DNA from: Gammaproteobacteria bacterium
GTDB taxonomy: Bacteria; Pseudomonadota; Gammaproteobacteria; HK1
DNA: 64,000 nt
Reading direction: 5' to 3'
NCBI GenBank assembly: GCA_021773635.1
Contig: JAJFJV010000025.1
Span: 62,001-126,000 of the forward strand
The translations under genes and the position numbers were made by a program. How positions within the stretch are numbered: position 1 is the stretch's first letter; each line of letters opens with the position of its first letter. This document shows, piece by piece, positions 12,089 through 64,000 of this stretch. The notes under the pieces are model-generated. The model was given only the letters and a program-made list of their open reading frames with translations. It had not been told where the DNA came from and made no database searches.

Positions 12089-12573
12089 GTGCCGTCATGG
12101 CCTCTGCGCTGGCTGTGCCCCGGCCCATGGTCATGGCGGATGTGGCTGAAATTTGGCGCATAGAACGCGCAGCCTATCCCTTTCCATGGTCCAAGAGCAC
12201 CTTTGCAGACTGTTTATACGCGGCAGGCTATTCCAACTGGGTATTGGCCAATCGGGATACTATCTTTGCCTACGCGGTGTTCTCGGTGGCGGCGGGTGAA
12301 GCTCATATTCTCAATTTGTGTGTGAATCCCGCCTGCCAGGGGAAAGGTTACGGCAAGCGGATGCTTGAGCAATTGCTGGACGTGGCCCGGGGGCATAGCG
12401 CCGAGACCGTGTTTCTCGAAGTTCGCCCTTCCAACACGGCGGCGCTCAAGCTGTACGAAGGTTCTGGTTTCGGTCGTATCGGCCGCCGCCGTGGCTACTA
12501 TCCGGGTGCCGATGGTCGTGAGGATGCGTTGGTGTATTCGCTGTCGATTCCGGCGCCTCAGGTTTGTAGCTGA
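12085..12573 (+). CDS. rimI: Ribosomal protein S18-alanine N-acetyltransferase
   Basis: GNAT-fold enzyme that acetylates the N-terminal Ala of ribosomal protein S18. The 162-aa protein has the acetyl-CoA loop NPACQGKGYGKRML (about residues 78-91), FLEVRPSNTAALKLYEGSGF and RRGYYPG, all typical of RimI. ATGA couples it to the glycosylase gene. Its 3' end overlaps the convergent sensor-kinase gene by 16 bp. Confidence 0.92.
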   Translation: MSAVMASALAVPRPMVMADVAEIWRIERAAYPFPWSKSTFADCLYAAGYSNWVLANRDTIFAYAVFSVAAGEAHILNLCVNPACQGKGYGKRMLEQLLDVARGHSAETVFLEVRPSNTAALKLYEGSGFGRIGRRRGYYPGADGREDALVYSLSIPAPQVCS

Positions 12574-15248
12574 GCTTCAATTTCCCGCCGCAGTTGTTCC
12601 ACCCGGGTCGCGATGCTTGAATATTCCGTATCGATAATCGCCTGCTCCAGCGCACGGGCGGCTGATTTAAGTTCTGTTGCGCCACAGCATGCGGCCCCCC
12701 CGGCGATGGTGTGAGCCTCCTCGCTGAGAGCGCGCCAGTCCTTTGCTTCGAAGGCCCTGGTGATGGTTTCCGGGCGTGACCTCAGATCTTCCCGTAACAG
12801 GGCTCCGAGCTCTGCTTCCAGGGATGGTTTTTCCTTGGGTTCAGGGGGTGGTGCACCCTCGGGTATCGGTGCGGATGCCCAGTTTGGGAGCCAGCGCTCA
12901 AGGGTCTGCCGGAGTGTTGCCCGATCCAGTGGTTTGGTGAGGAAGGCGGCCATGCCAGCGGCCAGTGCCAGGCGATGGGATGCCGGTGTGGCATCGGCAC
13001 TGAGTGCAATGATAGGGGTACGCCGGGTGCCGGACTCCAGCAGATGCAGGCGCTCTGAAAGCCACAGGCCGTCCCGATCCGGCAGGTGTAAATCCATCAG
13101 TATCAGGTCAAATCGATAGCGAAAGAAGGCCTCCAGGGCCTGTTGCCCGGTGACTGCCTGACTGACCTGGATGCCGAACTCACCCAGCAAGGTAGTGATG
13201 AGCTTTTGGTTAACCGCGTTGTCTTCCACCAGCAGGATATGAGCATCCGGGCCCATGAGCTCGCAGGTCTTTTCCCCGGCAAGATCCGTAGTATCCGGTT
13301 CTTCCGGAATTCCCGTAAGCCGCTGCAGTTGTCGGCGCAGTTCTGCGTTACGTACAGGCTTTCTCAGGAAGGTGCAGGGGCGGTTGCCTGGTGCCAAAAG
13401 TTCGGGATCCCGATGATCAAGTATCAGGAGCGGGCATGACAGCGCCATGCGGGCTATCGCTCCTTGCTTGTCGTCCTCCCGGCTCAGATCCAGGATCGCG
13501 CAGTCAGGGTGGGCGCGACGATTCTGTCCGGGGGATTGCCGCCCCGTTGGCGTTGTCAGGGCACGGATATCCCGGACACGTATCCCCCAATTCCGCATTT
13601 GTTCGCGCACCGACATGCGGGTAAATGGGTGGGGTGCGTACAGCGATACCCGGATACCCTCCAGGCCGCTGGGCTCGTAAGCGGGTAACGGTGACTGGCA
13701 GCAGTGGAGCGTGAATGTGAACGTGGAACCCTGTCCTGCCTCGCTTTCCACGGTGATTCCGCCCCCCATGGAGACTGCCAGTTTGGTCGATATGGCAAGC
13801 CCCAGGCCGGTGCCGTTGGCCTTGTGCTCTGGATCAGCCTGTTGATACGGCTGAAATATCTGCTGCTGCTGATCGGCGGGAATGCCGACCCCGGTGTCAC
13901 TCACCGTTATTTCCACCCCCAGGCTTTCTGAATTTTCATCGGCACGGGTAACGGTAACGATGACGCTGCCGGCCGGGGTAAATTTAATTCCGTTGGCCAC
14001 CAGATTTAGCACCACCTGGCGAATTCTCAGAGGATCACCCTGGCAACCGGGCGGGATATCCGAGGCCATGAAGTAAACCAGCTCCAGACCCTTGGCATGG
14101 GCGCCGGGCGCCAGCAGATCCAGTACATCCTCAATACATTCCCCCAGGTGAAATTCGCTGGACTCCAGATTTATCTCACCTGCCTCGATTCTGGACAGAT
14201 CCAGCAATTCATTGATCTGGCCAAGTAAGTGCTCGCTCGAGTTGGAAATGATTTCGGTGTAGCTACGCTGCTCCGAATTCAGTTCGCTGGCTCCCAGCAG
14301 TTCGCAGTAGCCCAAAACCCCATTAAGCGGGGTGCGAAGCTCATGACTCATATGGGTGAGGAAGGCGGATTTTTCCTGACTGGCTGCCAGTGCATGCTCC
14401 TTGGCGGCTTCCAGTTCGATGTTTTGGGATTCCGCTGTACGCAGGGTCTCACGCAGGTGACGGGTTGCCGCGTCCACCTTTTGTTGCAGGTCTTGCTGAG
14501 CCGTCTGCAGGGACCGGGCCATGGCATTAATGCCTCGTTGCAGACTCTGCAGCTCGCCTTCGCCCTCCAGGCTGAGCCGAGTGTCGAGTTGGCCATTCTC
14601 AAGTTGTCCAACTGCCTGAGTGATATGGTGGACGGGTCGAATGATCCCTGATGACCAGCGTAAGGCCAGCGCCATGATGAAGCCTGCTGCGAGCAGGGTT
14701 ATGGCGATGCTATAGCCGATTAACTGGCGCTTGTGTTTGCGCATGGTGGCGCGGGTGAGCTCCACCGTTACCCAGCCTATGGTATATCGTTTCGGTGTTT
14801 CGGCCACATCGGGATCGGGAGAGAAATCCTCAATATCGAGCTCACTGACTTGTACTGGCGCGCGGACGAACAGGCTCTCGCCATCATCTGAGTCAAGTTG
14901 TTGTACGGCCAGGCTTGCGCTGTTTTCGAAGTCGCGATGAGCTCGGGGCGTGGAGCCTTGGTGAACCAGAACCTTGCCGCGAAGGCCCTCAATGCTGACG
15001 GAGCGCACCTGATTGTCGCCAATGGCAGCATTGGAGAGCGTTTCAAGCACCCGTAGATTGCCCGAAAATACTCCGTATTCGCTCGCCGGGGCCAGATAGG
15101 TGGCGAGTGCCAGACCCTGTTCTTCCAGACCACGCTCCAGATCCACGAGTCGCAAGCGGGTATAGATGCCGGTCAGGGACAGGGCGATGACCAGCGAGGG
15201 CACGAGTGCCAGCAGAATGACGCGTCCGCGTATCCCGAGTCGTTTCAC
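12558..15248 (-). CDS. barA: BarA/GacS-type hybrid sensor histidine kinase
   Basis: Tripartite inner-membrane kinase expected to feed the UvrY/GacA-CsrA pathway. Order of parts in 896 aa: membrane helix (8-29), periplasmic sensor (30-175) with the BarA-family opening (ALATYLAPASEYGVFSGN), second helix (176-196), HAMP (197-250), HisKA with His302 in MSHELRTPLNG, HATPase (400-515, NGTGLGLAI), a degenerate receiver (about 530-640, lacking the usual acidic pair), a full receiver with Asp719, and an HPt domain with His846 in EEAHTIAGG. It overlaps the upstream binding-protein gene by 4 bp. Its neighbourhood near cysM and rlmD resembles that of gacS in Pseudomonas as I recall it. Confidence 0.9.
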   Translation of the reverse strand: MKRLGIRGRVILLALVPSLVIALSLTGIYTRLRLVDLERGLEEQGLALATYLAPASEYGVFSGNLRVLETLSNAAIGDNQVRSVSIEGLRGKVLVHQGSTPRAHRDFENSASLAVQQLDSDDGESLFVRAPVQVSELDIEDFSPDPDVAETPKRYTIGWVTVELTRATMRKHKRQLIGYSIAITLLAAGFIMALALRWSSGIIRPVHHITQAVGQLENGQLDTRLSLEGEGELQSLQRGINAMARSLQTAQQDLQQKVDAATRHLRETLRTAESQNIELEAAKEHALAASQEKSAFLTHMSHELRTPLNGVLGYCELLGASELNSEQRSYTEIISNSSEHLLGQINELLDLSRIEAGEINLESSEFHLGECIEDVLDLLAPGAHAKGLELVYFMASDIPPGCQGDPLRIRQVVLNLVANGIKFTPAGSVIVTVTRADENSESLGVEITVSDTGVGIPADQQQQIFQPYQQADPEHKANGTGLGLAISTKLAVSMGGGITVESEAGQGSTFTFTLHCCQSPLPAYEPSGLEGIRVSLYAPHPFTRMSVREQMRNWGIRVRDIRALTTPTGRQSPGQNRRAHPDCAILDLSREDDKQGAIARMALSCPLLILDHRDPELLAPGNRPCTFLRKPVRNAELRRQLQRLTGIPEEPDTTDLAGEKTCELMGPDAHILLVEDNAVNQKLITTLLGEFGIQVSQAVTGQQALEAFFRYRFDLILMDLHLPDRDGLWLSERLHLLESGTRRTPIIALSADATPASHRLALAAGMAAFLTKPLDRATLRQTLERWLPNWASAPIPEGAPPPEPKEKPSLEAELGALLREDLRSRPETITRAFEAKDWRALSEEAHTIAGGAACCGATELKSAARALEQAIIDTEYSSIATRVEQLRREIEAQLQT

Positions 15249-16195
15249 CGTGGGCCCTCCTCACCATCAAGTAGCGAGGTCAATTCGTCCTCGGCGGGCA
15301 GTGACAGCCCCAGAGAGTAGGCCACCTGACGATTCACCGTGATGCTGAAATACCGTGGATATGCTGGCGACGGTAGCCGCCATTTTCCGCTTGTCACCAT
15401 GGCTTCGATCAATTCACCGGTCTGGCGGCCAATCTGCCTCGGTGTGGAATACAGGGACAGCAGCGCGCCCGCATGTGCGTAGCTTTGGGAAAAGCCAAGC
15501 ACAGGGGTACGGTAGCGATAACTGTTGAGCAAGATGGCGTGGACGGTGGCGCGGTTGTATACGGTGGGGTCGGGCAGGGCAAGCAGCAGGTTGCTGGCAG
15601 GCAACAGTGCTTCCAGGGCGGGTATCAGTTCTTTTGCGTCCTTCAGGGTACGGAGTTGTGCTACCTCCGACGCCATCCTCAGTTGATCCTCGTGGATGCC
15701 TGACCAGCGCCCCAGCAGGACACCGATGCGCGGTTTTTCCGGCAGTATCCGGCGGGCCAGACGGAGGAGACGGAAGATCGGTTGGTCCAGGTAGATGGCC
15801 GAGTGGGTCCCGCCCTGTGCGTGGGTCTCGGGCTGCGGGTAGAGCTTCTTGTACGTGGCTTCGGGAATCAGGGTGTGGAGTTCCCGCACGGGCTCTAGTC
15901 CGGCGTCGCGGAAAAATTCTGCTGCCCGACTGCCTACAGTAACGCACAGAATGGGTTGCGCCTGGGGCCGTGTGCCCGCAAGTTCTGACGGACGAATTAT
16001 GCGTAACGGCGGAATAGGCACGGCGGCCCGGGCGAGGCTGTCGCGCAGGCCATGGATAAATTGTTCGTGGGCCGCATGCTCGGGGTTTGCAATGACCCAG
16101 ACGGGCGGCCGGGCATGGGCCGGAAAAGCAAGTAGTACGAGGCTCAGAATGAGGCCCGCGGGACAGTAAAAGCGGCTAATGCTTCCTTCCATCAA
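15245..16195 (-). CDS. Periplasmic ABC-type substrate-binding protein (PF04392-like)
   Basis: An exported solute-binding protein of the ABC_sub_bind fold. A signal peptide (about residues 1-28, ending FPAHA) is followed by two lobes; VIANPEHAAHEQFIHGLRDS, TVGSRAAEFF and the late LGFSQSYAHAGALLSLY and RQIGRQTGELI segments are typical. No permease or ATPase gene is nearby. It starts 33 bp downstream of the receptor gene and its stop overlaps the barA start, so a sensing role (ligand carrier for the kinase) is more likely than transport. The ligand is unknown. The frame offers adjacent ATGs at 16195 and 16192. Confidence 0.82.
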   Translation of the reverse strand: MMEGSISRFYCPAGLILSLVLLAFPAHARPPVWVIANPEHAAHEQFIHGLRDSLARAAVPIPPLRIIRPSELAGTRPQAQPILCVTVGSRAAEFFRDAGLEPVRELHTLIPEATYKKLYPQPETHAQGGTHSAIYLDQPIFRLLRLARRILPEKPRIGVLLGRWSGIHEDQLRMASEVAQLRTLKDAKELIPALEALLPASNLLLALPDPTVYNRATVHAILLNSYRYRTPVLGFSQSYAHAGALLSLYSTPRQIGRQTGELIEAMVTSGKWRLPSPAYPRYFSITVNRQVAYSLGLSLPAEDELTSLLDGEEGPR

Positions 16196-16228
16196 GTGTG
16201 TATTGCCAGCACGCAGTTCAGGCGTGGT

Positions 16229-18160
16229 TCACAAGGGCAGGGCCAGCTGCAGAAAGCCCGCTCGGCCCGAGCGATTCTCGTCACGGAAGTCGAGATATTT
16301 ATCCATCAGGTTATGTACTACCAGGGCAACTTGAGCCTCGCGCCCACGTTTCCCGAAACGTCGGGCCAGGCGAAGATTCAGGCGGCGGAACGAGGGTTGC
16401 AGGTTGCCTTCCCCAAGCCACGTCATTTGGCTCACCCGGGAGAAGGAAAAGCTGGCGTCATAGCGTTCGCCCAGATGGAAGATACCGAGCAGGTGAGTGG
16501 TGGCCGAGGGAGTGCTCTTCTCCAGGCCGGGATCAGCGCTGGTGGTACGCCCATTGGCCTGGCTGAGGACGAAGCGGGCCCGGGCAGTGGGTCGCCACTG
16601 TAGCTGTCCCTCCACGCCCTCGACTGTGGCAGAGCTTTCATTGATGAAGTTAAACGGAAGGACGCCGCTGGTGCCCACCAGATGGCGCAGGGAATTTCTG
16701 AACAGTTTCAGTTCCATCTGGAAGGTTCCGCTGGCGGTGGCTGCTACCAGGCCCAGTTCCCGCGCGATAATGCTTTCCGGCTGCAGTGTGCCCGGGCCGA
16801 GAAAAAGCGGGGCCATGGCGCCACCGCCACCGGCGATGGGTAGCTTCCAGTCCACATTATTTTCTAAAAATGAGGGGGTGCGCAGGCTTTTGCTCAGGCT
16901 CGCGCGGATGGCAACGCGCGGAAAGATACGGTAATTGACGGCCAGTCGGGGGGACCAGTCGGTACCGGTGACGTCATTGCTCTCCATCATCACGCCACCA
17001 TTGAAACCCAGCATGGGCAGCGGGCGCCATTCGAGGTTGCCAAATAGCCGGTAGAGGTGATTTTGCATCCGTGGACGTGCACTGCCGAACAGCAGCGGGG
17101 CCTCTACCTGATCCAGGCGCGCGCTTCCTCCCCAGACTACGCGCCAACTAGTTGCCGGGCGAAAGCGGTGTTCAAGTTCCAGATCGTAGCGGCGCTGGGT
17201 GACCGGGGAGGAGGTGGGAATAAAGGAGATACCACTATCGGTGTTGCCACCCATCGTCTCGCTACGGTGAAAATAATTGTAGTAGGCCTGCAGGCTCAGC
17301 TCGTGCTCGGGATGAAATACGTGTTGCCAGCGCAGCAGGCCGAAATGGGTCCGATCAGCCTTTGTCCGTGGATTCTGCAATGGATCGTTAAGGAAGCCAT
17401 CCTGCCGGGTGCCTTCATTGAAGCCGGCCTGAAACTCCAGCCGGTCCGAGCTTCCTGCCAACCAATCAGCGCGCAGGTTTCCCAATGTGCTGCGCTTGCT
17501 GTCATGGCGCTGGTCGAAGCCGTGATCACCGCGACGACTGATGCTGGTGCGAAAACTGAGCGGCCCCGCACTGTTGGCATAGCGGGCGCGGAACTGTTCT
17601 ACCCCATCGCTACCCCGGGTTATCTTGAGTTGTCCGCCCTGCTCGGCAGCGGAGTGATAGGTATGAATGCTGATGACGCCGAGAAAGGCATTGGCGCCAA
17701 AACTGGCGGCATTGGGGCCACGCACCACCTCGATACGCTCAATGTCATCAACACCAATGGAAAGATTGCTCCACTCCACCTGACCAAGCCCTGGTGTGTA
17801 CACCGAGCGGCCATCGATCAACACCTGCATCCGGCGGGAGAATTGATCCCCGAGTCCATGGTAGGTCACGGTATGGACGCTGCCATTGTCCGAGCCGACC
17901 TGAAAGCCCGGCACCATGCGGAATAACTCGTAGATCTCGCGTGCGCCGCTGGCAAGAATCATTTCCCGGTCGATGATGGTCATCGAGGCGGGGGTATCGA
18001 GCATGGGCTGTGCCAGGCGGGTGGCCGAGAGGACTACCGGGAGCTCAAAATAAATGCTGTCTTCACCGGGCAGGGCGGGCGAGTCGGCAAGCCCGGAAAA
18101 ACTGCTTGTTAGCAGAACCAGGGCTGCGGGTGTCGCAAGCAGAAGTGGCTTTATACGCAC
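16229..18160 (-). CDS. TonB-dependent outer-membrane receptor
   Basis: Predicted 22-stranded outer-membrane channel driven by TonB. A signal peptide (1-25) is followed by a plug domain (about 40-165) with VVLSATR as a TonB-box-like stretch, DTPASMTIIDREMI, VLIDGRSVYTPGLG and IERIEVVRGPNAASFGANAFLGVI. The barrel follows to residue 643, with ENRSGRAGFLQLALPL at the end. The chain terminates in Leu rather than the more common Phe. The ligand (siderophore, cobalamin or other) cannot be read from sequence. It leads a three-gene minus-strand unit with the binding protein and BarA-like kinase and is divergent from cysM. Confidence 0.9.
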   Translation of the reverse strand: MRIKPLLLATPAALVLLTSSFSGLADSPALPGEDSIYFELPVVLSATRLAQPMLDTPASMTIIDREMILASGAREIYELFRMVPGFQVGSDNGSVHTVTYHGLGDQFSRRMQVLIDGRSVYTPGLGQVEWSNLSIGVDDIERIEVVRGPNAASFGANAFLGVISIHTYHSAAEQGGQLKITRGSDGVEQFRARYANSAGPLSFRTSISRRGDHGFDQRHDSKRSTLGNLRADWLAGSSDRLEFQAGFNEGTRQDGFLNDPLQNPRTKADRTHFGLLRWQHVFHPEHELSLQAYYNYFHRSETMGGNTDSGISFIPTSSPVTQRRYDLELEHRFRPATSWRVVWGGSARLDQVEAPLLFGSARPRMQNHLYRLFGNLEWRPLPMLGFNGGVMMESNDVTGTDWSPRLAVNYRIFPRVAIRASLSKSLRTPSFLENNVDWKLPIAGGGGAMAPLFLGPGTLQPESIIARELGLVAATASGTFQMELKLFRNSLRHLVGTSGVLPFNFINESSATVEGVEGQLQWRPTARARFVLSQANGRTTSADPGLEKSTPSATTHLLGIFHLGERYDASFSFSRVSQMTWLGEGNLQPSFRRLNLRLARRFGKRGREAQVALVVHNLMDKYLDFRDENRSGRAGFLQLALPL

Positions 18161-18200
18161 ATTTTTATCACTGGTTTTTATTCCTTAACCCTAAAATGCG

Positions 18201-18243
18201 CGGGTGCACATATCCATCTGTGCAATCTATCAAAAAGCACCCG
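18201..18243. promoter_or_regulatory. Inverted repeat between the TonB receptor and cysM
   Basis: CGGGTGC (18201-18207) and GCACCCG (18237-18243) are exact complements, enclosing a second pair GCACA/TGTGC. It lies in the 150-bp divergent intergenic region, 41 bp upstream of the receptor start, and could form a leader hairpin or an operator. I see no recognisable riboswitch core. Confidence 0.4.
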
Positions 18244-18310
18244 TACTTCCCATTTTCGATCTAGCCGCGTGCGGGATGTGCCGTTCCAGCGCTTCCGCTA
18301 CACTTCCGGC

Positions 18311-19201: not shown

Positions 19202-19222
19202 GCCGTCCCTTTCTCTCCCTTG

Positions 19223-21268
19223 ATGAGTTCAATTCAAGTCCGGAACGCCCTCTGCGCTTCGGGCTTGTTGCTGTTGGTGAGCGGTCGGGTTTTGGGAAGC
19301 ACCGGTCTGGAGCTGGATACGGGCCCGATGGCGGGTCCGGGGTGGTCCGCAGCCGGTGCCCGTATTGCGCTAGAGTTCACCACTTCCGGCAGCACTCGCG
19401 CCAGTGGGCGTATTTTCGGCCTTGAACTCCCCTCTCCCCTGGAAAAAATCCGGGAGATGGAATTTCTCTGTCCTGCATTAAAGCTGGACAAGGGTTTTGC
19501 CTGCCCCGCGGCACAACTCAAATTCCAGCGATCGGCGGGTGCATGGCGCCCGCCCCCGCTGGCGATTCGATTCGACCCCGTGAGTGGACTGCATTTGCAG
19601 GGACTGATGCTTGCCGACGGTAAGCTGGATCTGCGTTTTATCCCGACGCCTGAGGGTTGGCAGGCGAACTTGCAGGCGGGTGGAGTGGTACTTCCAATAC
19701 TTGCCCAGTGGCTTGCAGGGTGGGGTTTGGCAACGGATCCGGAATTTTCCGCCGGCCAGTTCACCGGGAAGCTTGACTTGGAGCAACAGGCCTCGGTACT
19801 CAAGGGCGAGCTGAACGCCTCATTCATCAATCTTGCCTTCTCCAGCGATGACGGTGAACGTGCCGGAGAAAACCTCAGTGTGGAACTCAGGGCGCGTGGC
19901 GAGCAGACGGGGACGGCGTGGCGGCTGACGGGAAATGCCAAGTTGGCCGCCGGCGTACTGGGCGTGGAGCCGGTGTGGGTCGAGGTAGGGGATGCCCCTT
20001 TGGCGATGCAGTTTGAGGTGGCCTGGCCGGGGCAGGGCAAGGTACTGGAGCTGCAACAATTGCAGATTCAACACCCCGGGGTCGGCGAACTGAATGCCCG
20101 GGCCAGCCTGCTTGATGGTCGCTGGACACTGCATCAGGCCGAGCTTGAACGGGGCCACTTTCCGGCACTTTATCAGGTCTATCTACAGCCATTTTTGTAC
20201 GGCACCCCGCTGGCAGAGCTGGAGACTACGGGCGAACTGAGCTTTGCCCTGCATCGAGCCGGCGGGGATGAGCTGGATGTAGAAATTGAGTTGCAGCAAC
20301 TGGATCTGTACGACAGACAGCAGCGCTTTGGTCTGGAGCAGCTTTCCGGAAGGCTGCACTGGGGCACGGGCAAGCGCGTGCCAGAGAGTGTCCTCAAATG
20401 GGCGGGTGGTCATGTGTATCGTGCCCCACTGGGGCCGGCCAGCCTGCGTGGAGAACTGAAAGGTCAGGACTTTCGGCTCATCGAGCCACTGGAGGTGCAG
20501 GTCCTTGACGGCCCATTACGCGTCGCGGGCTTCAAATTGCAGGGGCTGGGCACCCCGGCACTTTCCTGGGAACTGGCCGGCAGCCTTGGGCCACTCTCCA
20601 TGGCTCGCATCAGCCAGGTCATGGAGTGGCCTTCCTTTGAGGGCAGTCTGGCGGGTGAGATACCGGCGGTTCGTTATGCCCGGGGGGTGATGACCGTGGA
20701 GGGTGAGTTGGGGGTGCGGGTTTTCGATGGTGATGTGGTGGTGCGTGGACTGCACCTTGAAGAACCCTTCGGGGTGGTGCCGCGGCTACGGGCGGAGGTG
20801 GATTTCCGCAACCTTTCACTGGATGCGCTGACCCGGGTTTTCTCCTTTGGTACCATTCGCGGCAGACTGGATGGAGCACTCCACGGCCTGCTCCTGGAGG
20901 ACTGGCAACCGCGCGCCTTCGATGCAAGATTTGCCACCCCGGTGGACGACCATAGTCGCCATCGGATCAGTCAGCGCGCGGTGGGGAATCTGAGCAGTTT
21001 GGGCGGTGGGCCAGCGGATATCCTGTCCCGCAGCTTCCTGCGTTTCTTCGAGGATTTCTCCTACCAGCGTCTCGGTATAAGCTGCCGCCTGCGCCGGGGA
21101 TTGTGTGAAATGGGCGGCGTCGAGGATAGCCCCGAAGGCTATTATCTGGTTAAGGGTGGCGGCATCCCGCGCATCGACGTCAAGGGCTTTAATCGTCGGG
21201 TGGACTGGAGCACTCTGGTAGAGCGCCTCAAACAGGCGACCGCTTCACAGGGACCGGTGGTTAAGTGA
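19223..21268 (+). CDS. YdbH-like AsmA-family intermembrane phospholipid transport protein
   Basis: A large envelope protein of 681 aa. The N-terminal hydrophobic stretch (about residues 10-26, ASGLLLLVSGRVLG) anchors or exports it. The rest is a long series of beta strands typical of AsmA-like bridges, and the C-terminal third resembles the YdbH/dicarboxylate-transport domain (FDGDVVVRGLHLEEPFG, then DDHSRHRISQRAVGNLSS, DILSRSFLRFFEDFSY and MGGVEDSPEGYYLVKGGG). In E. coli YdbH works with YnbE and YdbL in moving phospholipids to the outer membrane. Here it is followed by a YdbL-type lipoprotein gene and no separate ynbE. It lies 21 bp after cysM. Confidence 0.75.
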   Translation: MSSIQVRNALCASGLLLLVSGRVLGSTGLELDTGPMAGPGWSAAGARIALEFTTSGSTRASGRIFGLELPSPLEKIREMEFLCPALKLDKGFACPAAQLKFQRSAGAWRPPPLAIRFDPVSGLHLQGLMLADGKLDLRFIPTPEGWQANLQAGGVVLPILAQWLAGWGLATDPEFSAGQFTGKLDLEQQASVLKGELNASFINLAFSSDDGERAGENLSVELRARGEQTGTAWRLTGNAKLAAGVLGVEPVWVEVGDAPLAMQFEVAWPGQGKVLELQQLQIQHPGVGELNARASLLDGRWTLHQAELERGHFPALYQVYLQPFLYGTPLAELETTGELSFALHRAGGDELDVEIELQQLDLYDRQQRFGLEQLSGRLHWGTGKRVPESVLKWAGGHVYRAPLGPASLRGELKGQDFRLIEPLEVQVLDGPLRVAGFKLQGLGTPALSWELAGSLGPLSMARISQVMEWPSFEGSLAGEIPAVRYARGVMTVEGELGVRVFDGDVVVRGLHLEEPFGVVPRLRAEVDFRNLSLDALTRVFSFGTIRGRLDGALHGLLLEDWQPRAFDARFATPVDDHSRHRISQRAVGNLSSLGGGPADILSRSFLRFFEDFSYQRLGISCRLRRGLCEMGGVEDSPEGYYLVKGGGIPRIDVKGFNRRVDWSTLVERLKQATASQGPVVK

Positions 21269-58016: not shown

Positions 58017-60818
58017 TTAGTTGTCTTCCTTGTCGGTGAGCCTGGGTCGCCTCAGATGCGGATGTTCGCAAGGAGCGCCTTGGCCCACGATACTCGTTAT
58101 CTCTTCGAGCAGGGAGTCGGTGTCGGAATTTTTGTCGATGATCCGCTCGACGCCACGTTTCAGGCGGTGGCGTTCATCTTCGCTGAGATCTTTGGCGGTA
58201 ATGATGATGACCGAGATGCTTGCCCATTCCGGGTTCTCGCGCAGCCGTTCCAGGAATTCGAATCCATCCATTTCCGGCATCATCAGGTCCAGCAGCACCA
58301 GGTCTGGAAGCTGCTGGACCAGTCGTTCCATGCCCTCGCGGCCATTGTCCGCGTGGTTCACTTCCCAACCCAGTTTTTCCAGGGTCCGGCAGAAGAGTTC
58401 GTTGGTGGCCTCGTCATCCTCCACCACCAGCGCCCGGCAGGGCGGGTCAGTGCAAGGATATTTCTCCAGCGCCTTGAACAATCGATCGCGTTGGATGGGC
58501 TTGACCAGGTAGTCCGTCGCCCCGAGGGCGTAGCCGCGTTTCTTATCATCCACGACGGTACACATGACAACGGGAATATCTCTTGTTTCCGGTAGTTGTC
58601 TCAGTTTTTCAAGTACGTTCCAGCCATTGATATCGGGCATGAGCACATCAAGGGTGATGAGTGCCGGCTGCAACTCGCGGGCGAGTCGCAGTCCGGCCAC
58701 ACCGCCAATGGCGATCACTACCTGGCAGGGGGTCGGCAAGGTGTGAAGCTGGCGCTCCAGTAGCTTTGCTTCTTCCGGTTCATCCTCGATGATCAATATG
58801 ATCGGTTTGCCCTCGGCGTTGAGGGCGGAACGGGGATTTTCCGTTGCCATCACGTCGGTCACGGGTTCTGGTGTCTGTGCGGGGATGCGTGCGGTAAATG
58901 TCGAACCCACCCCGGCGCTACTCTCTACCTTGAGGCTGCCGCCCAGCATTTCACAGTAGCGACGGCTGATAGCAAGTCCAAGACCGGTGCCACCGAAGCG
59001 CCGCGTGGTGGACCTGTCGGCCTGTACGAACTCGGAAAAGATCCCTTCCAATTGCTCCGGATCCATGCCAATGCCGGTATCTTGCACCCGGAAAATGACC
59101 CAGTCCGTATCCGCGAGCCCTTCCCGTTTGACCTCAAGCTGGATTTCTCCATTCTCGGTGAACTTTGCCGCATTGCTTAGCAGGTTAAAGAGTATCTGGC
59201 GGAGTTTGATTTCATCTGTGGCTATCAGCCCGGAATTCTCGGCACAAACCAGTTTCAGGCGATTGGTGTTTTTTTTCGCTAGCGGCTGGGTCATGGAGAC
59301 GACATCGTCCAGAAACGCCTGCAGCGGAAAGCGCTCGATCAGCAGTTCCATGCTGCCCGCCTCAATCTTCGACAGGTCGAGAATATCGTTGATCAAGGTG
59401 AGCAGATGCTTGCCGGCACCATGAATTCTTTCCAGATCCGGCACGAAGGTATCCAGCTTCAGCTCCTGCGCTTCTTCCTCCAGCATCTCGCTGTAGCCGA
59501 TGATGGCATTGAGCGGGGTGCGCAACTCGTGACTCATGTTGGCGAGAAAACTGGATTTCGCCACGTTGGCCGCCTCGGCTGCATCCCGCGCCGCCAGTAT
59601 CTCGCGCTCTGCCTGTTTGCGCTCGGTGATATCACGCACGACACCGGTGAACATGCGTTCACCGGCCACCTGCATCTCGCTAACGGCCAGCTCGAGGGGA
59701 AACACCGTGCCGTCCTTGCGTTTACCCTCCACCTCACGGCCCGTACCAATCACCTTCGCATCACCCGTGGCTACGTAATTTCGGACGTAGCCATCGTGCG
59801 CACTCTGGTAGGGTTCGGGCATGAGCAGCTTGACGTTTTGCTCCATGACCTCGTCGTCGGCATAGCCGAAGAGTCGCTCGGCCGCCGGATTAAAGGCTTT
59901 GATATTCCTCTGTTCGTCGATGACGATGATGCCGTCCACAGTGGTGTCAAGAATCGCACCCATACGCTGTTCGCTATCGCTGAGCGTAGCTACGGCGTGC
60001 TGTAGTTTTGCATTGGAGTCTTGGGCCTGCGTTGTTACCGCCTGTAGCGCTGTTTCGCTCTCAAGAATCGATGCCTGAGCTTTTTTCAGTGCATGCAGCA
60101 GCGTTCCCACCTCATCGGCAGAGCTGTCATCTATAGCAATGTCCCGTTCCCCCGAAGAAAGGCGCCGGGCGATGTTTACCGCGGTACCTATCCGGGAGAG
60201 CACGCTGCGCATGGTCAGAAAGGTGACCAGTACGACCAGCATGACTGCCGTGGCCAGACCGATCGTTGTGGACAACCGCGCGATTCGGATGCTGGCCCGG
60301 GCGCTTTCTTCCCTCAGCCTCAGGAGATGGGATTCGGCGCTGCGCATCTCCACGGTTAGCGCACGAATGCCGTCCATGAGCTGCTTGCCACGCCCTGACC
60401 GCACTACTGCCATCGCGGCCTCGTGATCTCCCTTTCTCTGGTACTGAATCGACCGCTTTGATTCTGCAATTTTTGCATCGAGCAGGGGTCTTAGCCGTTC
60501 GATCATCCGTTGTTGTGAGGGATTGTCGGCGGTCAGCGTGGCGAGTCTTTCAAGCTCGCTGTAGACGTCTTTCCTCGCCGAGAGATAGGGCTCAAGAAAT
60601 ATCTCATTGCTGCTGAGGATGAAGCCACGTTGCCCGGTTTCAAGATCCTTGGAATAGGAGATCAGGTTTTCGAGCGTGCCGAGGACCTCGTACGTATGAG
60701 CCTTCCAGTGCATGGTTTTGACCAGCCTGGTGTTGTTGAAATGCGACCCCAATCCGACGATTACAAGAATCATCACCGGGATGCCCAGGCCGACGAGTAG
60801 TTTGGATTTAATCGTCAT
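58017..60818 (-). CDS. CHASE3-HAMP-PAS hybrid histidine kinase with two receivers
   Basis: A 933-aa membrane kinase. An N-terminal helix (5-24) is followed by a periplasmic CHASE3 domain (about 30-180, DLETGQRGFILSSNEIFLEPY), a second helix (184-204), HAMP (205-260), PAS (about 285-400), HisKA with His430 in NMSHELRTPLNAII, HATPase (about 535-645, GGTGLGLAISRR), and two receivers with Asp724 and Asp844. Both receivers keep the acidic N-terminal pair and Lys-Pro or Lys near the end. No HPt domain is present. Its start overlaps the upstream kinase stop (TAATG), so the two kinases are cotranslated. Confidence 0.92.
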   Translation of the reverse strand: MTIKSKLLVGLGIPVMILVIVGLGSHFNNTRLVKTMHWKAHTYEVLGTLENLISYSKDLETGQRGFILSSNEIFLEPYLSARKDVYSELERLATLTADNPSQQRMIERLRPLLDAKIAESKRSIQYQRKGDHEAAMAVVRSGRGKQLMDGIRALTVEMRSAESHLLRLREESARASIRIARLSTTIGLATAVMLVVLVTFLTMRSVLSRIGTAVNIARRLSSGERDIAIDDSSADEVGTLLHALKKAQASILESETALQAVTTQAQDSNAKLQHAVATLSDSEQRMGAILDTTVDGIIVIDEQRNIKAFNPAAERLFGYADDEVMEQNVKLLMPEPYQSAHDGYVRNYVATGDAKVIGTGREVEGKRKDGTVFPLELAVSEMQVAGERMFTGVVRDITERKQAEREILAARDAAEAANVAKSSFLANMSHELRTPLNAIIGYSEMLEEEAQELKLDTFVPDLERIHGAGKHLLTLINDILDLSKIEAGSMELLIERFPLQAFLDDVVSMTQPLAKKNTNRLKLVCAENSGLIATDEIKLRQILFNLLSNAAKFTENGEIQLEVKREGLADTDWVIFRVQDTGIGMDPEQLEGIFSEFVQADRSTTRRFGGTGLGLAISRRYCEMLGGSLKVESSAGVGSTFTARIPAQTPEPVTDVMATENPRSALNAEGKPIILIIEDEPEEAKLLERQLHTLPTPCQVVIAIGGVAGLRLARELQPALITLDVLMPDINGWNVLEKLRQLPETRDIPVVMCTVVDDKKRGYALGATDYLVKPIQRDRLFKALEKYPCTDPPCRALVVEDDEATNELFCRTLEKLGWEVNHADNGREGMERLVQQLPDLVLLDLMMPEMDGFEFLERLRENPEWASISVIIITAKDLSEDERHRLKRGVERIIDKNSDTDSLLEEITSIVGQGAPCEHPHLRRPRLTDKEDN

Positions 60819-62296
60819 TATGTAATTGTTTCGAGCTTGTGGTTGGGGAGCGCCAGTATAGCCATCGTTCCCTTTCCGACTTCACTCTCAAACTCCAGGG
60901 TGCCGCCAAGCAGGCAGCTATAGCGTTGGCTTAAGGCCAGGCCGAGCCCGATACCATCAAATTTTCGCGTCGGTGAGCTGTCGCCCTGGGTAAACGGTTT
61001 GGTGAGGCCCTCGGTGATTGCCGGGGCCATACCGATCCCGGTGTCCTGAACCCGAAAAATCATCCATTCGCCACTTTTACGCTGCTCCCGTTCCACCTCC
61101 AGGGCAAGCTGACCCTGTTCGGTAAATTTCGCCGCATTGTGGCCCAGATTGTAGAGAATACGGCGGAGCAGTACGGCATCCGTATGCATATCATTAGCCC
61201 CATCGCTACAACGCAGGCTCAGGGTATTTTCACGTTGGGCGTTGAGCGCCGCGAGTCGGGTTGCGGTCTCTTCAAGGAGGGGGGGGATAGCGCAAAGCTC
61301 AAAATTTGCCTCTATCCGTCCGGCCTCTATCTTTGCGATCTCGAGAAGGGCCTCAACAAGCTGAAGCAGATGTTTGCCTGAGGTGTGAATTTTGCCCAAA
61401 TCCTTCACCACCTCGCCGGCTTCCATCTCGCCCATATCATCGACCAACATTTCGCTGTAGCCGATGATGTGGTTGAGGGGGGTTTTCAGCTCGTGGCCCA
61501 TGTTGGCAAGGAATTCGGATTTGCCGCGGCTTGCGGTCTCCGCCATTTTCCTGGCCTCTTCCAGCTTTTTCTCGGCTTCGACCCTGTGCGTTACATCGCT
61601 CCCTACACCCCGGTAACCGGAAAATTTTCCTTTGGGGTTGAAGGTGGGCTTGCCGCTGGCATTGAGGATGAGCAAACGCCCGTCCGGCGTTTGGAACTCA
61701 TAGCTGAAATCCCGAAACGGGAGATGTTTGTCGAGCTCATCATAGTGCTGGTTCCAGCGTTCACGCTGAGCTTTTGGGTGGCCGGGCAACTCCCCGCGTT
61801 TGGTTCCGATGATGTCCTGGGCGGAAATACCCAAAAGCTCGTAAATCTTTTCGGAAATAAAAATGTAGCGGAGATCGGGGCCCACCTCCCACACCCAATC
61901 GGCCCCGGCCTCGGAAATGTCGCGAAACCGTTGTTGGCTCTGCGCCAGTTCTCGTGTTACCCGCTTGCGCTTGGCTACTTCATTCGTCAATTCCTCGACC
62001 GATGGCGCCCAACGGATCAGGCCCAGCGTCAACAGCACATAACCTCCGAGATACCCTACAAATTTCTCAAGAAATGCCTCGGCTTCGGTATCACCGATAA
62101 CCACCAGGTTGTTGAGAGAATCAAAGTTGTCGGTAATATCGAGCAAGGTTCCGAACAGCAGCAGGGAAAAGCCCAGCAGGATTTGGTTCCAGCCTGAACA
62201 AGAGAGAAAATTCTTGTGCCTCCCCAGTTTCCAGAGGAATCCCACCAGCACCAGCAGTACACCCGCGCGGATGCTTTCCAGGATTATGTCTAGCAA
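60818..62296 (-). CDS. PAS-domain sensor histidine kinase
   Basis: A 492-aa kinase with an N-terminal membrane region of about three helices (8-25, 37-55, 82-97), a PAS domain (about 118-240), HisKA with His268 in NMGHELKTPLNHIIGY, and a HATPase domain (about 370-485) with DTGIGM and GIGLGLALSQR. The usual MSHELRTPLN is MGHELKTPLN. TTG 62296 is used because GGAG lies nine bases upstream and no ATG fits. It has no receiver, so its phosphate may pass to a partner; the hybrid kinase in the next gene has two receivers. Confidence 0.9.
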   Translation of the reverse strand: MLDIILESIRAGVLLVLVGFLWKLGRHKNFLSCSGWNQILLGFSLLLFGTLLDITDNFDSLNNLVVIGDTEAEAFLEKFVGYLGGYVLLTLGLIRWAPSVEELTNEVAKRKRVTRELAQSQQRFRDISEAGADWVWEVGPDLRYIFISEKIYELLGISAQDIIGTKRGELPGHPKAQRERWNQHYDELDKHLPFRDFSYEFQTPDGRLLILNASGKPTFNPKGKFSGYRGVGSDVTHRVEAEKKLEEARKMAETASRGKSEFLANMGHELKTPLNHIIGYSEMLVDDMGEMEAGEVVKDLGKIHTSGKHLLQLVEALLEIAKIEAGRIEANFELCAIPPLLEETATRLAALNAQRENTLSLRCSDGANDMHTDAVLLRRILYNLGHNAAKFTEQGQLALEVEREQRKSGEWMIFRVQDTGIGMAPAITEGLTKPFTQGDSSPTRKFDGIGLGLALSQRYSCLLGGTLEFESEVGKGTMAILALPNHKLETIT

Positions 62297-62362
62297 GTGT
62301 CCACTCCTTCAATTCAAAGACGCCAGGAAGAGCATCACCAAGCTGTGGTAAAAGGGGATATC

Positions 62363-64000
62363 TTAAACATTGGTGTTAAAGGTTTTTTCTTCGACCATCA
62401 ACTGGAGAAAGTCTGCAACCGGCATGGGTCGTGCGAAATAAAAGCCTTGCACCGAGTCACACTGGCACGCGCGCAGGAAAGCGAGCTGCTCTTTGGCATC
62501 CATGCCCTCGGCGATTACCCTTAATTCCATGCTGTGGGCAAGGGCGATCACGGCCTGGACGATGGCGGCGCTCTTTGGGTCGCGAGTCATCTGGATGATG
62601 AACGAGCGGTCCACCTTGAGGGTCTCGATGGGGAAGCGACTGAGTGAAGAAAGGGACGAGTGGCCGGTGCCAAAATCGTCCAGAGCCAACCCCAAGCCGC
62701 GTTCGCGAAAGGCATCCATGACTCCACTGAGCTGATCCACATTCTCCATGACGATATTTTCCAGCAGCTCGATTTTCAGGCTCCTTGGATTAGCGCTGGT
62801 CTCTGCGAGGACCTGGTCAACCATCTCGACGATTTTCGGCTCGCGCATCTGATTGCGGGAAAAATTTACGCTCAAGCTGAAGGGATTAACGGGGAATCCG
62901 TTTTTCTCCATTTTTTTCAGCGTGGTACATGCGCGATGCAGCACCCATTCTCCCAGCGGTACGTCGAGGCCCGTTTCTTCCGCCAAGGGGATGAATTCCC
63001 CCGGGGAGATGAGTTTGCCGTCTGGGGGCTGCCAGCGCACCAATGCCTCCGCGCCCTCGATGCGACCCGTATCCATGGCGATCTGCGGCTGCAGGTAAAT
63101 GAGCAGCTCCTCGTTGTCCAGCGCCCTGCGCAGTTTTTTCTCCAGGGAGAGGCGGCGCATCGCCGTGGCGTTCATGTCGGCGGTAAAAAACCGGTAGCTA
63201 TTTCCTCCCTGTGCGATGGCCTGACGCACGGCACTTGTCACGTTCTTGAGCAATGTCTCCGGGTCATCACCATTCTCCGGAAACAGGCAGATACCTATGT
63301 TAGCGCTTAGATGAAACTCGTGATTTTCTATCACCAACGGTGCCTTGAAGTCAGTCAGGAACTGCTGGGCGAGGCGGGAAACACGAGTGGTGGTCGGAAA
63401 CCAGGTTATCAGGATGCTGAATTCCTGGGGTCCGGTGCGAGCGATGGTATCCCCGGCCTCGGTATATTTCGCAAGGCGTTGCGCCGCCAGATCGATCGAT
63501 TTATCTGCCGCCGTCTGGCCGAGGGTCTCTTTAATGAGCCCGAGTTTGCTCAGGCGAATGGTCAAAATGGCCAGAGGTTTTTTTTGGGGGCCAAAAATCC
63601 CGGTAAAGTGGGTGACGCGGTCCGTGAACAGTCGAAGATTGGGTAATCCGGTTGACTGGTCGAAATAGGCCAGGTGCTCGATGTGCTGCTCTGCCTGCTT
63701 CAACTCGGTGATATTGGTGTGCATGGCAATGGCGCCGGCGCCGGATCTGCCTTGCAGAGTCACATTGTAGTGCCGCTCCTCTCCATCGGCCCGGCATGCG
63801 TGTTCAAAAATCAATCTCCGGCGTTTGCCGGAAAGTACAGCCTCCAGGTCACTAACCAGTTGCGGCATGTTCTCGTCGGTGAAGCAATGGGCCTTTTTGC
63901 AGATAGCCAGATAATCACTTTCCCCGCCAGAGTCATCGTAATTACCCAAATCACAGGAGAACCGGAGCCAGCGTTGGTTGGCTGCAATGATCTTGCCCGC
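62363..64000 (-). CDS. PAS-degenerate GGDEF-EAL protein (5' end beyond window)
   Basis: The frame is open through base 64000, so the N-terminus is missing; the apparent start at 63949 is internal. A PAS-like region (IIAANQRWLRFSCDLGNYDD, ERHYNVTLQG) precedes a GGDEF domain whose signature reads TGPQEF, so cyclase activity is unlikely. The EAL domain is complete: Glu-Ala-Leu in GAEALVRWQPP, LDDFGTGHSSLSSL, and RVIAEGMDAKEQ. It is therefore most likely a c-di-GMP phosphodiesterase. It lies 66 bp upstream of the PAS kinase in the same direction. Confidence 0.88.
   Translation of the reverse strand, partial: AGKIIAANQRWLRFSCDLGNYDDSGGESDYLAICKKAHCFTDENMPQLVSDLEAVLSGKRRRLIFEHACRADGEERHYNVTLQGRSGAGAIAMHTNITELKQAEQHIEHLAYFDQSTGLPNLRLFTDRVTHFTGIFGPQKKPLAILTIRLSKLGLIKETLGQTAADKSIDLAAQRLAKYTEAGDTIARTGPQEFSILITWFPTTTRVSRLAQQFLTDFKAPLVIENHEFHLSANIGICLFPENGDDPETLLKNVTSAVRQAIAQGGNSYRFFTADMNATAMRRLSLEKKLRRALDNEELLIYLQPQIAMDTGRIEGAEALVRWQPPDGKLISPGEFIPLAEETGLDVPLGEWVLHRACTTLKKMEKNGFPVNPFSLSVNFSRNQMREPKIVEMVDQVLAETSANPRSLKIELLENIVMENVDQLSGVMDAFRERGLGLALDDFGTGHSSLSSLSRFPIETLKVDRSFIIQMTRDPKSAAIVQAVIALAHSMELRVIAEGMDAKEQLAFLRACQCDSVQGFYFARPMPVADFLQLMVEEKTFNTNV

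Follow-up and report, generated by a model that had tools for sequence, protein, structure and literature searches.

Kinases of the BarA/GacS type are master regulators, and the locus described here raises the question of how such a kinase acquires its signal. The Escherichia coli BarA protein responds to protonated acetate and formate via its periplasmic domain (PMC8639471), and the ligand of GacS still was termed unknown in papers of 2020 (PMC7695008) and 2025 (PMC12148439). In the window, which is the whole stretch of 64,000 nucleotides of a gammaproteobacterial contig that was analyzed, a preliminary description grouped the genes for a TonB-dependent receptor (TBDR), a periplasmic binding protein (SBP) and a BarA/GacS kinase into a unit, and proposed that a ligand admitted by the receptor is presented by the binding protein to the periplasmic domain of the kinase. 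The open-licence papers that were searched contained no description of an SBP or TBDR as a partner of BarA/GacS.

Organization of the locus

The features of the locus are as follows.

12558..15248, minus strand: BarA/GacS-type hybrid kinase, 896 aa (Pfam domains, NCBIfam; sole full-length BarA-like gene in the genome)
14730..15152, minus strand: sCache_4 periplasmic sensor domain of the kinase, residues 33-173 (Pfam, 48.6 bits; model pLDDT 89; CitA-like)
15057..15086, minus strand: sensor motif ASEYGVFSGN, kinase residues 55-64, candidate contact site (helix 1/helix 2 junction)
15245..16195, minus strand: SBP with a PF04392-like class I fold and a signal peptide (Pfam score below cut-off; AlphaFold2; Foldseek)
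16229..18160, minus strand: TBDR, 643 aa (Pfam Plug and barrel above cut-off)
18161..18310, minus strand: intergenic region between the divergent TBDR gene and cysM, probable promoter region of the trio as judged from the sequence

The layout given in the preliminary description was confirmed in that the TBDR, SBP and hybrid kinase are specified by three successive open reading frames on the minus strand, and no permease or ATPase was detected in the neighborhood. The reported gap of 33 bp from the TBDR stop codon pertains to the TTG start codon of the SBP gene at 16195; the adjacent ATG at 16192, which is the more likely start, is 36 bp distant. Bases 15245-15248 are common to the SBP stop codon and the GTG start codon of the kinase gene, which is the 4-bp overlap noted earlier. 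A simple consensus match, which is uninformative here, located no sigma-70-like promoter in the 18161..18310 region. The trio is flanked by cysM and then rlmD on one side, and by rimI, uracil-DNA glycosylase and leuA genes on the other, with some of these names assigned by similarity alone. A 682-aa protein without a Pfam or NCBIfam match that is encoded on the plus strand (19220-21268) is retained after cysM in several relatives. Elsewhere in the window, a cluster on the minus strand (58017-63949) encodes a CHASE3-PAS hybrid kinase, a PAS kinase and a GGDEF-EAL protein, with more kinase matches beyond the window end.

The kinase and its pathway

The kinase possesses the domain order sCache_4-HAMP-HisKA-HATPase-REC-Hpt that typifies the BarA/GacS architecture, with all domains above the Pfam cut-offs. 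The protein matched the NCBIfam PRK11107 equivalog over nearly its full length with 556 bits compared to a cut-off of 890 and, because this cut-off was missed, is denoted BarA/GacS-type instead of a certified equivalog. The gene is single-copy and occupies the cysM/rlmD site that is classical for barA, and the product is the single full-length BarA-like protein in the 2.55-Mb genome. One UvrY/GacA-like regulator with 51% identity to E. coli UvrY and one CsrA also are present. As there is a single BarA-like kinase, UvrY/GacA and CsrA, a canonical BarA-UvrY-CsrA pathway is plausible in this genome, which has the kinase architecture, the chromosomal site and the single UvrY and CsrA proteins in common with the known BarA/GacS-UvrY/GacA-CsrA system. 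Nevertheless, the E. coli barA gene adjoins rlmD and relA with neither an SBP nor a TBDR gene beside it, unlike the window, and short acids are sensed directly by its product (PMC8639471). In the kinase tree, which was rooted at the midpoint, E. coli BarA, the window kinase and most SBP-bearing kinases are located on one side with a weak support of 65. The sensor domain model (pLDDT 89) matches the periplasmic domain of CitA. A solved GacS periplasmic domain sought via E. coli BarA yielded no sequence match.

The TonB-dependent receptor

The TBDR comprises a signal peptide, a TonB-box-like sequence (ELPVVLSATRL), a plug and a barrel, and is one of two proteins with plug-domain matches in the genome. 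In FecA/FpvA-type signaling a TBDR feeds a signaling pathway, and a TBDR would supply such a pathway in the trio as well. However, an N-terminal signaling domain was not detected in the window TBDR and there is no sigma/anti-sigma pair; instead, a soluble SBP stands between the receptor and the sensor. The nearest named family is that of the alkane-linked TOL_0244/OmpS receptors (NF053590; PMC6304351), to which the TBDR was matched with 217 bits, short of the cut-off of 645 for membership. Among 51 strong NF053590 matches only one is upstream of an SBP of this type. An alkane ligand by analogy with TOL_0244/OmpS was rejected since the TBDR does not reach the family cut-off and an SBP of this type hardly ever neighbors the strong members.

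The binding protein and the search for a transporter

The sole Pfam match of the SBP was with PF04392 (ABC_sub_bind) at 18.9 bits, which is less than the gathering cut-off of 25.9. As the predicted fold agrees despite this score, the protein is best regarded as PF04392-like. The AlphaFold2 model has a mean pLDDT of 92 and, in Foldseek comparisons, resembles the binding proteins 3lkv, 3lft (with L-Trp) and 6hni, and also LuxP (2hj9) and XylFII (5xsj) which are partners of sensors. Cleft residue Asp209 is conserved in 97% of the SBPs of the module and, when aligned, corresponds to the IDN/TDN-motif Asp of 3lkv, 3lft and 6hni. The alignment hints at an amine-bearing ligand, and SBPs related to that of the window bind aromatic amino acids. 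The window SBP thus shares its fold and conserved cleft Asp with TrpX-like binding proteins of ABC transporters (3lkv, 3lft, 6hni), but differs from these in its score below the PF04392 cut-off and in the lack of a permease and ATPase. A search of plasmids with the SBP provided two weak partial matches.

Cooperation of the SBP with a distant ABC transporter had been specified as an outcome that would count against the proposed unit. No matching leftover ABC system was identified in the genome, and the operon lacks the permease and ATPase genes expected with a PF04392 protein. The SBP provided the single PF04392 match of the genome, in which just two PF02653 permeases are encoded; the genes of these permeases lie on a different contig and share an operon with those for a dedicated Peripla_BP_6 protein and an ATPase. 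Therefore, no transport partner of the type expected for the window SBP is visible. Moreover, none of the strong SBPs that were inspected is beside a permease. A distant SBP (L236; 56 bits) is followed by permease-like and ATPase-like proteins, as read from translations, in the manner of a transporter operon. The fixed location of the SBP gene beside a sensor gene in the absence of a transporter is the arrangement of LuxP-LuxQ-type systems.

Co-occurrence of the trio in Gammaproteobacteria

The co-occurrence survey that had been suggested was performed with 370 gammaproteobacterial genomes. The sCache_4 domain was found at 116 loci in 99 genomes, SBP matches in 101 genomes (74 strong) and the TBDR clade in 105 genomes at E <= 1e-40 (70 strong). 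The SBP gene is directly upstream and on the same strand at 70 of the 116 sCache_4 loci, which corresponds to 67 of the 99 genomes, and a TBDR gene precedes the SBP-sensor pair at 45 of these 70. A strong SBP and sCache_4 coexist in 65 genomes, sCache_4 occurs alone in 34, the SBP alone in nine, and neither in 262; most of the nine proved to possess a sensor of sCache_4 type that was overlooked by the Pfam model. Similarly, 65 genomes have both a strong TBDR and a strong SBP, compared to five with the TBDR alone and nine with the SBP alone, and at 14 SBP loci without an adjacent TBDR gene the receptor is elsewhere in the same genome. The association is far above chance with extreme Fisher P-values, uncorrected for kinship, both for SBP with sCache_4 and for TBDR with SBP. 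Between 28 and 30 sCache_4 kinases, including E. coli BarA, have no adjacent SBP. The SBP also was absent from 14 genomes of other genera in the family of the window genome, and sCache_4 from the two of these that also were scanned for it. Close relatives beyond the genus therefore lack the module.

Three genomes, all from a single family (L224:2611-4430, L225:5985-8113 and L228:5131-7086), contain the TBDR-SBP pair with no adjacent sensor gene, and the genes that follow resemble a TsaA-like gene, fabA and fabB, as named by eye. A sensor may act in trans in these cases. A second, parallel family (L160, L187, L197, L198, L202 and L208) consists of TBDRs and weaker PF04392-like SBPs (26-43 bits with the A3 SBP profile) that adjoin long kinases whose sensors display RQSxLALLYGxxEN in place of ASEYGVFSGN.

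The preliminary description also had made its proposal dependent on conservation of the neighboring genes with barA in related genomes. Accordingly, 47 barA loci of the cysM/rlmD site were compared, i.e., those with cysM or rlmD nearby, with E. coli and the window included. The SBP is present at 34 of these loci and the TBDR at 27, in agreement with the proposal.

The receptor-binding protein pair precedes sensors with different outputs

Eighty extra loci were fetched from named genomes by TBDR similarity. Many are from Betaproteobacteria (Gallionellaceae, Rhodocyclaceae, Burkholderiales and others), accompanied by Cycloclasticus, Marinobacterium and Pseudomonas, and the TBDR-SBP-sensor order recurs in most of them. 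Marinobacterium and Cycloclasticus possess forms of the module near barA, whereas Pseudomonas ceruminis and P. farsensis carry the TBDR-SBP-sCache_4 arrangement with a short non-GacS kinase (L082:8857-13873 and L083:8872-13831), a form that is tractable in the laboratory. When 55 sensors were scanned, that of the window included, sCache_4 and HAMP each were detected in 53, HisKA in 35, GGDEF in 20 and EAL in 12. Across all loci, a sensor of sCache_4 type directly follows the SBP in 126 of 142 cases at a median distance of 16 nt, in a set that is biased as it was picked via the TBDR, sCache_4 or SBP and in which L052 and L141 look like one genome. GGDEF/EAL outputs are present in 24 of the 126 SBP-sensor units, and GGDEF outputs were swapped at least six times on well-supported branches of the SBP tree. 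Distances in the SBP and sensor trees correlate with r = 0.68 compared to a permutation maximum of 0.18, which partly reflects common ancestry. As the pair accompanies sCache_4 at other sites with changing outputs, synteny alone is not a sufficient explanation for the association. The partner of the TBDR-SBP pair is the sCache_4 sensor domain and not BarA as such, with other kinases and GGDEF/EAL proteins bearing the same front end. Overall, co-inheritance and the common sensor domain strongly support the view that the TBDR, SBP and kinase are a functional unit.

A sensor motif retained with the binding protein

The ASEYGVFSGN motif (residues 55-64) is located where the first long helix ends and in the next short helix of the sensor model. 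A Gly followed by Asn or Asp in the motif is found in 51 of 64 SBP-paired sensors, but in only five of 30 unpaired sensors. Thus, the motif is preserved in sensors that have the SBP and has decayed in those that do not, and it is a candidate contact site for the SBP. When independent pairs on supported branches were counted, 5.1 pairs were in the expected direction versus 0.1 in the other (median p = 0.06). In mutual information analysis of the SBP and sensor no single pair exceeded the shuffled controls, and the mean of the top 20 was only slightly higher, which could be due to kinship. The pocket residues of GacS/BarA also were considered as a marker of SBP dependence, and were rejected as paired and unpaired sensors did not differ clearly in these positions.

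History of the front end

The presence of the SBP on the kinase tree requires at least 14 changes, in which gain and loss are not separable as the root is the midpoint; repeated loss of the SBP among BarA-type kinases is the preferred reading. E. coli BarA works without the TBDR-SBP front end. A tentative proposal, to which we give somewhat less than even chances, is that this front end was the ancestral input of the Gac/Bar system, that it was lost from E. coli BarA and the other orthologues without partners, which now sense directly, and that the original Gac signal was a TonB-imported compound presented by the SBP. The position of E. coli BarA among SBP-bearing relatives and the 14 or more changes in SBP presence fit with this proposal.

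Discussion

The TBDR, SBP and kinase probably form a dedicated signal-input chain that passes from the TBDR to the SBP docked on sCache_4, then to BarA, UvrY/GacA and CsrA, in which we infer import, ligand binding, docking and phosphorelay. The TBDR would bind a scarce extracellular compound and import it via TonB, and the PF04392-like SBP would capture the compound in the periplasm with no transfer to an ABC permease. The SBP would then dock on the sCache_4 domain, probably near ASEYGVFSGN, and thereby might set the kinase/phosphatase balance of BarA, whose His-Asp-His relay would lead to UvrY/GacA and CsrA. This reading builds on the observed gene order and co-inheritance, on the constant combination of TBDR, SBP and sCache_4 across outputs, on the predicted folds, and on the single UvrY and CsrA proteins. 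By analogy, a periplasmic SBP relay of the LuxP-LuxQ type with its own outer-membrane importer is the most likely arrangement. The LuxP-LuxQ (AI-2) and XylFII-LytS systems, like the window, have the gene for a transporter-less class I SBP beside that for a sensor kinase with a PAS/Cache-type or other periplasmic domain. TorT-TorS and ChvE-VirA are further examples of sensor kinases that depend on binding proteins. LuxP docks on its kinase, as the SBP would in the trio.

The presentation of a receptor-admitted ligand to the BarA sensor, as envisaged originally, is supported by the co-occurrence data, by the fact that the pair stays with one type of sensor domain while the outputs vary, and by decay of the motif without the SBP, with physical presentation as the conjectural step. 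Against such a chain stand the 28-30 sCache_4 kinases without an adjacent SBP, E. coli BarA among them, the three genomes that keep TBDR-SBP without an adjacent sensor, the mutual information that rose above shuffles for no pair, and the p-value of about 0.06 with independent pairs. The imported ligand instead might bind directly in the sCache_4 pocket, with the SBP serving only to concentrate or buffer it without contacting the kinase. E. coli BarA answers protonated acetate and formate through its own pocket (PMC8639471), the window kinase keeps a His at the position of GacS His97, and the sensor model matches the ligand-binding CitA. However, pocket residues are kept inconsistently in SBP-paired sensors while the motif outside the pocket is kept, the cleft Asp209 of the SBP itself is highly conserved, and LuxP and XylFII, which share the SBP fold, dock on their cognate kinases, so that direct pocket binding is unlikely.

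Two further explanations separate the SBP from signaling. In one, the TBDR and SBP function separately in uptake, and their genes are situated between cysM and barA merely as part of an old region of conserved gene order. Because cysM, rlmD and barA are themselves conserved neighbors, adjacency in close relatives is cheap, and a few genomes have TBDR-SBP but no sensor. Nevertheless, this sensor domain also follows the pair at different sites, among Betaproteobacteria and with GGDEF/EAL outputs, and co-occurrence holds for non-adjacent genes; this explanation is very improbable and already largely refuted. The other holds that the SBP serves a distant or unrecognized inner-membrane transporter, with the uptake system as a target of BarA and not its sensor input. 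TrpX-like relatives of the SBP are ABC transport proteins and the distant homologue L236 sits with a permease and ATPase, but no second PF04392 protein was detected in the genome, the sole PF02653 permeases come with an SBP of their own, and no strong SBP that was inspected adjoins a permease; this explanation likewise is very improbable. The preferred reading remains that of the signal-input chain.

In this reading, the TBDR and SBP probably deliver the long-unknown signal of the BarA/GacS sensor. Should a dedicated importer and SBP serve these kinases in many Gammaproteobacteria, purification or screening of the SBP instead of the sensor domain would offer a route to the ligand, and, if the front end is indeed the ancestral input, the original Gac signal could be fished out using the SBP. 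Moreover, the presence of the front end on GGDEF/EAL proteins as well points to a portable cassette for sensing, by which outer-membrane import is linked to a phosphorelay or c-di-GMP output.
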